From Bacillota bacterium (GTDB lineage Bacteria; Bacillota; Bacilli; Alicyclobacillales; SLC66): 36,054 bases of DNA. Below, one piece after another: positions 34,158 to 35,897 of the stretch (positions are counted from its first letter, which is position 1; every line of letters starts with the position of its first letter). The stretch covers positions 1 through 36,054 of the forward strand of contig JAKACV010000022.1 in NCBI GenBank assembly GCA_021821085.1, in the 5' to 3' direction. A program made the position numbers and the translations under genes. The notes under the pieces are model-generated. The model saw only the letters and a program-made list of their open reading frames with translations, did not search any database and had not been told where the DNA came from.

Positions 34158-34433
34158 TTACGCCGCCAAGAGCGTTGATTTTAAGTCGATGTCAATCTCT
34201 TGGTACCAGGCATCCAAGTGCTGGCACATCATGATCCCGAAGATCCTGATCAGCCACATCTTCGTGCTGCGGTGTCTGGCGGCTTCAAACTTGTAGTCGA
34301 TCTTCTCCCGCTTATTTGAACGCTCGACTGTTGTTCTCCGTTTGTAGACATCGTTCCATTCGTCGCTGTGGCGGGCGACGGGCGGGAATAAGCGAGGATT
34401 GTCCTTGGTATATTGTTTTCTCTGCATAAACAA
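34158..34433 (-). pseudogene. C-terminal fragment of a DDE transposase
   Basis: The 91-residue frame matches the C-terminal end of DDE-type transposases by its pattern: YKRRTTVERSNKREK (the region of the catalytic Glu), then RHRSTKMWLIR and a MCQHLDAWY end. The N-terminal two-thirds, including the catalytic Asp residues, is absent. A strong GGAGGGG lies 8 nt before an ATG at 34427, so the fragment could still be translated. No intact insertion sequence surrounds it. Confidence 0.65.
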
Positions 34434-34854
34434 ATCCCCTCCACTAATAATTTAAGATTAATGGACAAGGGATAAAGACTCAAATCCAATTTTGGGGCTT
34501 AAGTGTAGAGACAACAATTTAACGGTTTTATACGCTAAGTATTAGCGGACATAACAAGCTGATTTCAGGCCATTTAATGACCGCTAATGAGCTTTAGTGG
34601 ACATTCAACACACTGAAATAATGACATTTTATTGCTTAGAATAAAGAAATCCAACAATCACCTTCCAAAACCTGTCTTAGCGTATGTTTTCGTTAAAATG
34701 TTGGCGGTACCCCTATATGGTGTCGTGGGACGTGTACCAAGACGGCATTCCAAGCGCTGAATTTCGGATGAGTGTAGGCGGTCGCTTCATGGATTTGCCT
34801 GAGACGGTTTGTTTTCGATGGGATGTTCATGCAATTGTTTGGGGGGTATCAACA
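34434..34854. other. Stretch without a clear gene, with site-like repeats
   Basis: Three TTAGYGGACAT-type sites occur: TTAGCGGACAT at 34542-34552 (+), ATGACCGCTAA at 34577-34587 (inverted, one mismatch) and TTAGTGGACAT at 34594-34604 (+). ATACGCTAAG at about 34530 and CTTAGCGTAT at about 34676 form an outer inverted pair. From 34684 a frame is open into the ThiF-like gene and encodes WRYPYMVSWDVYQDG-like sequence I do not recognise; it could be a gene remnant. Confidence 0.55.
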
Positions 34855-34961
34855 ATGGTAACTCCTATCCGTGTCTTAGATCCTGAGAAAACGATCCTCC
34901 TCATCGTAGGCGTTAGTGGAACCAGCGGGTATGTGTTGCAACAAGTGGCACGTCTACTTTA

Positions 34962-35015
34962 CGCACTCAAGGAGCAAGGACAGAAGATTCCTTCTGTCCT
35001 TGCTCCTTGAGTGCG
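34962..35015. repeat. Perfect 25-bp inverted repeat with a 4-nt loop
   Basis: 34962-34986 and 34991-35015 are exact reverse complements; the loop is ATTC. The left arm begins CGCACTCAAGG. No T tract follows, and the repeat lies within the ThiF-like coding sequence at the frameshift. Confidence 0.95.
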
Positions 35016-35050
35016 ATATCGTGGATCAAAAAAACCTGCTGCGCCAATAT

Positions 35051-35076
35051 TTCTTGCCACAGGATCTAGGCAAGAA
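35051..35076. repeat. Perfect 8-bp inverted repeat inside the ThiF-like gene
   Basis: TTCTTGCC (35051-35058) and GGCAAGAA (35069-35076) are exact reverse complements, with a 10-nt loop. Confidence 0.75.
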
Positions 35077-35127
35077 AAAAGCAGAAGTGCTTGCACAACG
35101 CTATGCACTCACTTATGGCATCGACAT

Positions 35128-35160
35128 CGTTGCCTATCCAGAGTACCTGGATAGGCAACG
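35128..35160. repeat. Perfect 14-bp inverted repeat inside the ThiF-like gene
   Basis: CGTTGCCTATCCAG (35128-35141) and CTGGATAGGCAACG (35147-35160) are exact reverse complements, with the 5-nt loop AGTAC. The reading frame stays open through it. Confidence 0.95.
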
Positions 35161-35367
35161 AACGATCACCGATCTGATTGCGAGTGTACACACACCGGAG
35201 AGACCTTATGCCCAAGTGGAACCGATCACGCCAGTTGTCGTAGGTTGCGTCGACAATGCACCCACACGAAAGCTTTTGCACGAACAAGTGCACGCGCTTC
35301 GTGATGGGGTGTATATCGACATTTGTGCGGTCTGAGGCGGCGATGGATCACGTGTTGGAAGTGTCGT

Positions 35368-35414
35368 TATAACCAGTCAAAGCCCTCTTCTTATGGGGGC
35401 TTTGACTGGTTATA
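35368..35414. repeat. Perfect 18-bp inverted repeat after the ThiF-like gene
   Basis: TATAACCAGTCAAAGCCC (35368-35385) is the exact reverse complement of 35397-35414, with an 11-nt loop. It lies between the ThiF-like stop and the toxin-antitoxin pair. It could act as a terminator for either strand, but neither side has a good T tract. Confidence 0.9.
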
Positions 35415-35449
35415 CTAATAGTAAATGAAAAAATATTGGAGTGATAAAC

Positions 35450-35635
35450 ATGGCTGAAAATCGCGAACGTCAAAAGATTAGTTTTGAAGCTAAAAGGGTT
35501 GTTACTTTAGGACCTAATTTCGATTTCTGGATCAATGAAGAGGATGATATTTATGATGAACTTTACACAAAGAAGGCCGAAACAGGGCCAAATTTATCTG
35601 ATGGCAGTGGAATATCGAGATCGTCCCAACATTAA
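35450..35635 (+). CDS. Probable antitoxin of a MazF/PemK-type pair
   Basis: This small acidic protein of about 61 residues lies upstream of and overlaps the toxin frame by 83 nt, the usual toxin-antitoxin order. It contains FWINEEDDIYDELYTKK. The N-terminal part (RQKISFEAKRVVTLG) does not match a DNA-binding fold I can name. TGGAG lies 9 nt before the ATG at 35450. The role is inferred from context. Confidence 0.55.
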   Translation: MAENRERQKISFEAKRVVTLGPNFDFWINEEDDIYDELYTKKAETGPNLSDGSGISRSSQH

Positions 35636-35897
35636 AAAGGTTAGACATGTAGTGGTTGTTTCTAACGAACGAGCCACAGATATTGATGTAATTGCTGTAT
35701 CTGTATCAAGTCAATTAAAAAATCAGAATTTGATGTTTCGATTCACTATTTGGAAGGAATGCGGATTATCCAGACCATCCATTGCTCGTACTTCCAAGCT
35801 GTTATCGGTTAGCAGTCAACAATTGCAAACTTATCTTGGCAAATTAGACGCTACGGATTTAAATCGTATTATTGAGAAATGCAAAGATGTTTTTTAA
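35553..35897 (+). CDS. MazF/PemK-type endoribonuclease toxin
   Basis: The 114-residue protein fits the MazF/PemK fold: QGQIYLMAVEYRD, the strand RHVVVVSNE, VIAVSVSSQ, and a C-terminal part with SRPSIARTSKLLSV and LGKLDATDLNRII. Family members cleave mRNA and are held inactive by the upstream antitoxin. The usual basic residue before the VVV strand appears as KKVRH. Start at ATG 35553, with AAGAGG 9 nt upstream. Confidence 0.75.
   Translation: MMNFTQRRPKQGQIYLMAVEYRDRPNIKKVRHVVVVSNERATDIDVIAVSVSSQLKNQNLMFRFTIWKECGLSRPSIARTSKLLSVSSQQLQTYLGKLDATDLNRIIEKCKDVF

Follow-up and report, generated by a model that had tools for sequence, protein, structure and literature searches.

Quasipalindromes Probably Perfected by Replication Template Switching in a Decayed PRTRC-Like ThiF Paralog

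Introduction

How did four perfect hairpins come to lie within 453 bp of a single bacterial locus? The window analysed here is a stretch of 36,054 nucleotides from a Bacillota bacterium (contig JAKACV010000022.1 of assembly GCA_021821085.1). An original prediction, made from the letters of this DNA, placed four perfect hairpins in a row at 34962–35414, and all four were found there. The predicted stems of 25 and 18 bp were correct for the outer two hairpins, whereas those of 8 and 14 bp for the inner two were in fact 9 and 15 bp. Three readings had been offered, namely template switching, a structured RNA, and single-strand transfer or a mobile element. The first is the one favoured by the present analysis; the other two found little support.

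The correction of quasipalindromes was the subject of earlier work (Ripley, 1982; van Noort et al., 2003, as cited in PMC7202029 and PMC6649704). The E. coli reporters described in PMC7202029 indicate that template switching brings a quasipalindrome closer to perfection or all the way to it. Changes in coding genes were attributed to the same process in the yeast study PMC8604942, and PMC8794818 describes how it can give compensatory changes in RNA genes. For the locus in the window, comparison with its gene copies suggests that quasipalindromes within a decayed PRTRC-like ThiF paralog, and at its 3′ end, were probably perfected by template switching during replication.

Results

Density of Hairpins in the Window and the Genome

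Hairpins with a stem of at least 9 bp and a loop of 3–15 nucleotides were counted. The remaining 35.6 kb of the window held five of them, with stems of 9 to 13 bp, which agreed with the claim that the density in the cluster was far above that elsewhere in the window. The count was extended to a sample of the same genome (G000, a draft in 107 contigs) instead of the whole genome. This sample comprised 20 stretches with 294,163 bases, about a tenth of the genome, and contained 58 hairpins. The stem was at least 14 bp in 14 of the 58, and the longest was 22 bp. No 453-bp stretch of the 294,163 bases had three or more hairpins; a density similar to that of the cluster was not found in the 294-kb sample, and the predicted excess was not refuted. 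Furthermore, when first-order Markov sequences were generated from the segment (2000 runs), at least one hairpin occurred in 2% of the runs and at least two in none.

Relatives of three other hairpins were sought in the genomes of the window's genus (G000, G001, and G002) to test generality. No homolog across the hairpin was found in these three genomes for L034:839–905 (G000 contig 5), a perfect hairpin with a 27-bp stem and a loop of 13, or for the 20-bp hairpin of L124. The 19-bp hairpin of L059, which lies in coding sequence, was mostly covered by homologs in G001 and G002, where its pairing looked poorer by eye.

Decayed ThiF Copy and Its Neighbourhood

The hairpins had been described as lying in and after one gene. 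Their position was as described, but the gene was not intact: it is a broken ThiF copy whose frame stops inside the first hairpin. As judged from the alignments, the hairpin segment belongs to a broken two-gene unit and represents a decayed paralog of a PRTRC-like ThiF gene; its features are given in Table 1. An intact copy was found on contig 79 of the same genome (L021), where a JAB/MPN protein gene overlaps a gene for a ThiF-like protein of 286 aa. Contig 50 ends with a second broken copy (L022). L021 resembles the PRTRC pair of ThiF (TIGR03736) and protein A (TIGR03735) in that it has both side by side as best matches, and it differs in that both proteins score under the curated cut-offs (103.4 bits against 144.75 for ThiF; 54.8 bits against 101.8 for its neighbour). 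The score of the window ThiF fragment against TIGR03736 was 46.9 bits.

Table 1. Features of the hairpin segment, in window coordinates.
Feature	Position	Strand	Description
3′ end of JAB/MPN (PRTRC protein A-like) gene	34714–34861	+	Fragment; homology to L021 starts here
ThiF 5′ part	34855–35010	+	In frame; ATG at 34855 to TGA at 35008–35010 in the right arm of H1
H1	34962–35015	+	Perfect hairpin, 25 bp, loop 4
Extra T relative to L021	35000	+	Completes H1 and shifts the ThiF frame; also in L022
ThiF codons continued, shifted frame	35011–35321	+	ORF 34916–35335 reads through
H2	35050–35077	+	Perfect hairpin, 9 bp, loop 10; between FLP and GKK codons
H3	35127–35161	+	Perfect hairpin, 15 bp, loop 5; window-only GA to AG at 35153–35154
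Deletion junction, 344 bp relative to L021	35321–35322	+	Right end falls in a palindrome of 8 bp in the intact gene
H4	35368–35414	+	Perfect hairpin, 18 bp, loop 11; former 3′ end of ThiF

The JAB/MPN fragment in the window has two extra bases (34737 and 34841) compared with L021 and L022, and the window and L022 have in common a sequence that replaces the front of this upstream gene. Despite the deletion, the window copy retained the last ThiF bases and the stop-codon hairpin. Partial copies of the unit were frequent in G002. An aroQ-type dehydroquinase gene and a possible transposase fragment (34158–34433, matches under the cut-off only) are located upstream of the segment, and a PemK/MazF-type toxin gene is located downstream. 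The stretch 35322–35700 was 92% identical to contig 25 of G002.

Several other observations were made around these copies. Directly behind the hairpins, at 35450–35897, a small ORF without a Pfam/NCBIfam match overlaps the toxin gene. The intact ThiF gene of L021 is followed, at 1993–2865, by a gene like those of the Rpn recombination-promoting nuclease family (52.3 against a cut-off of 52.1). An insert of about 150 bp at L022:997–1151, with inverted ends of about 20 bp and flanked by repeated CGCTAAG, interrupts sequence that is continuous at 34533–34539 of the window, and by eye it looks like a small non-autonomous transposon.

Completion of H1 and the Break of the Reading Frame

H1 was the longest of the four hairpins. 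In the intact copy L021 its inner stem comprises 10 bp, and there is a one-base bulge as well as mismatches, whereas all 25 of its 25 pairs are formed in the window and in L022. The right arm in the window differs from that of L021 by the inserted T and by substitutions at 35006, 35011, and 35012, and all four differences complete pairs with the left arm; the derived arm matches the reverse complement of the left arm exactly. Three of the four (the T and the changes at 35011 and 35012) are in common with L022, in which a stop corresponding to that of the window frame is also present. Hence, the completion of the palindrome is tied to the break of the ThiF frame, because the same inserted T does both.

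The fourth difference was of another kind. The window and L022 differed in 27 of 217 columns overall, and in the 50 bases of the H1 arms they differed at 34971 and 35006 alone, two positions that are partners in the stem. Two random differences in the arms fell on partner bases in 0.7% of draws. At this pair, the right base differs from L021 in the window and the left base differs in L022.

H1 was covered by only three copies, and the copies found in G001 and G002 do not align across it. The polarity of the change therefore rests on the in-frame L021 together with the outgroup genes. Among 14 sequences of relatives besides L021 (three of them duplicate records), a perfect stem of 9 occurred at the H1 site only in L010, and the other 13 had stems of 4 to 6. 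A 9-bp perfect stem was also present in L186, a plasmid gene close to L010.

States of H2, H3, and H4 in Other Copies

The perfection of H3 was due to the two adjacent changes listed in Table 1. All 10 of the other copies covering H3 were imperfect, and in L021 it has 11 Watson-Crick and two G-T pairs of 15.

H4 was also imperfect in L021. In nine copies, excluding L034 and L038 with missing or gapped arms and including L022 and L033, which are identical in H4, it had 13 to 18 Watson-Crick pairs of 18, and the arms differed between copies but mostly matched each other. The arms were paired at 17 of 18 positions in the G002 copies L029, L031, and L037, which means that the perfection of H4 was not achieved in the window alone. 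As a separate observation, a 28-bp perfect palindrome in G000 contig 14 (L035:1138–1196) resembles, by eye, two right halves of H4 head to head, as though the hairpin had been rearranged through its centre.

At the site of H2, hairpins of 9 bp in L010 and 8 bp in L186 are present, and several of the window bases resemble those of outgroup genes; for these reasons H2 need not be a correction. It may owe its presence largely to the FLP and GKK codons. A hairpin at H2 can arise from synonymous codons, with a probability of 0.018 for L010. In L022, H2 is fully paired by eye if G-T pairs are allowed.

Simulated Substitution of L021 and L022

The L021 segment from H1 to H3 was randomly substituted at 6, 12, and 14%, and three or more hairpins arose in none of 4000 runs at each level (0 of 12,000). 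In simulations starting from L022 (6000 runs), the 25-bp H1 survived in 13% at 4% change and in 1.65% at 8% change, against an observed 27 differences in 217 columns, and two new hairpins never arose. The window copy had 22 changes of its own outside the arms; part of it may therefore come from another allele.

Functional RNA, Terminator, Mobile Element, and Artefact

The reading that survived best besides template switching was that the hairpins belong to a functional RNA or a regulatory structure and were kept paired by compensatory changes. This was considered unlikely. The matching variation of the H4 arms among the nine copies is what such a structure would give, as are the persistence of pairing in H1 through the two-sided difference between the window and L022 and the full G-T-tolerant pairing of H2 in L022. 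Moreover, in a comparison with 150 codon shuffles, the L021 segment folded better than 148 (z of −2.2), which leaves room for structural constraint. However, the perfect stem of H1 was not conserved in 13 of the 14 relatives' sequences, the open gene in L021 was less paired than the broken copies, and the change that completed H1 broke the reading frame. Six Rfam matches were obtained with E-values from 0.0002 up to 1, but the families concerned were eukaryotic microRNA and plastid hairpin ones, and the scores of 24–32 bits were below half to little over half of the gathering scores of 56–82.

A more ordinary explanation is that H4 is the intrinsic terminator of the ThiF unit and that the remaining hairpins reflect chance and codon bias. 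H4 does sit at the ThiF stop codon of L021, synonymous codons can yield H2 as noted above, and the copy in L022, in which a G+C-rich stem is followed by TTTTGCTGTTT, looked more terminator-like by eye. In the window, however, no T tract follows the 18-bp stem, and chance fails for H1 and H3 according to the genome sample and the substitution simulations. A terminator scan, which allows loops of 3–8 only whereas the H4 loop is 11, found none. This explanation was judged improbable, somewhat more so than a functional RNA.

Lower still was the probability assigned to hairpins of single-strand transfer, of a replication origin, or of mobile-element ends. Many partial copies exist in the genus; the homology of L021, L025, L029, and L037 ends at 35416, directly behind H4; several copies begin at 35075–35077; and the possible transposase fragment lies upstream. 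The left ends of the copies, however, differed widely, so that the two common ends of an IS200/IS605-like element were not found, and the window and contig 25 of G002 remain alike past H4, at least as far as 35700. Of the four hairpins, three are inside former codons, and no Y1 transposase or relaxase match was obtained among the four window ORFs scanned. An assembly or amplification artefact was hardly credible: the genome is a draft and a contig of 3,688 bases in genome G005 is an end-to-end palindrome, so that artefacts may occur in drafts, but H1 is present on two contigs that differ at one of its base pairs, and H4-type hairpins are also present in another genome, G002. The G005 contig itself (contig 45, L093; 3688 bases) is a perfect palindrome over its whole length, with arms of 1842 bases, and is probably an assembly artefact.

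SbcCD and Long Hairpins

The distribution of SbcCD was explored in 21 genomes. SbcD scored over its cut-off in 13 of them, and the same 13 had SbcC matches with E-values of 1e-35 or better; none of the SbcC matches in the 21 genomes reached its own cut-off. In G000–G002, the SbcD matches were under the cut-off (the best was 58.5 bits, in G000, against 77.65), and SbcC was absent in G000 or trivial (E about 1e-5). From these matches, SbcCD seems to be missing from the genus of the window. Hairpins with stems of 14 bp or more numbered 34 in six genomes without SbcCD (1,075 kb sampled) and 18 in five genomes with it (820 kb sampled), an excess that was not significant by rough arithmetic, with base composition differing between the genomes. 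One of the 34 was the end-to-end palindromic contig of G005, and G001, of the same genus as the window, was low, with three such hairpins in 142 kb. The absence of SbcCD as the driver of long hairpins was not supported by this comparison, and no causal claim is made for it, because long hairpins were not clearly commoner in the sampled genomes that lack it.

Discussion

Template switching remains the probable origin of the perfect state of H1, H3, and H4 in the decayed ThiF copy. A polymerase that had stalled would briefly take the opposite arm of the hairpin as its template before returning to its own. Imperfect inverted repeats, on which it could act, are found in L021 for H1, H3, and H4, and H3 is imperfect in the nine further copies covering it as well. 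The changes came in tracts, with the inserted T and three substitutions of H1 within 13 nucleotides and the two adjacent substitutions of H3. For H1, we infer that about 13 nucleotides of the left arm (34965–34977) were copied into the right arm (35000–35012), which would give the inserted T and the three substitutions in one event. L022 has the T and two of these substitutions in common with the window; this step would accordingly predate the parting of the window copy and L022, and its frameshift would have broken the ThiF reading frame. The pair 34971/35006 would have been settled separately in the two, because it is matched in both copies with different bases. H3 would then have been completed by the two-base change in the window copy, and H4 by changes within the family of hairpins at the gene end. 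The loss of coding constraint may have let such changes persist, so that the dead copy keeps what the live one could not. The occurrence of several sites in one gene may be explained by the intact form, which already carries quasipalindromes.

The correction of a quasipalindrome in lacZ reporters of E. coli (Klaric et al., 2020; PMC7202029) is among the nearest known parallels. As described there, an imperfect repeat becomes perfect and the changes match the other arm, including frameshifts and multi-base changes; in the present case, the process is deduced from gene copies and concerns three sites within some 450 bp of a single decayed gene. The yeast changes described by Abraham and Hazkani-Covo (2021; PMC8604942) are alike in their homogenized inverted-repeat arms in coding DNA and their multinucleotide mutations, whereas they concern 39 yeast genes across strains and not a bacterial gene family with a broken reading frame. 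Paired changes on both arms were explained by copying in the RNA hairpins of Monttinen and Loytynoja (2022; PMC8794818), in RNA genes rather than in what is here mainly former protein-coding DNA. The locus is best regarded as a neat example of a mutation mechanism already known and not as a new system.

A wider reading was entertained tentatively, and it is rather doubtful. The ThiF coding sequence might be a recurrent hotspot of template switching, open genes included, in which quasipalindromes keep being perfected by replication with an amino-acid change or a broken frame as the outcome; the apparent absence of SbcCD may ease the process in the window's genus. On this reading, the gene would carry quasipalindromes because the codons of the KEQG/VLL and FLP/GKK motifs are nearly complementary. 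In L010 (G026; protein 59.6% identical) and in L186, an Alicyclobacillus plasmid gene near-identical to it (794 of 813 bases), the left arm of H1 encodes KEQR and not the usual KEQG, and it pairs better than in sister genus members. This pattern is suggestive of one more such event in a gene that is still open.

Two aspects of the decayed copy are notable, namely the number of sites in one gene and the single change that both completed a palindrome and broke a reading frame. Even without an RNA function, decaying DNA can acquire long perfect hairpins whose two arms carry matching changes, which is a warning not to read covariation alone as proof of structure. With its intact sister copy in the same genome, this locus offers a clear natural case in which the perfection of a palindrome broke a bacterial reading frame.
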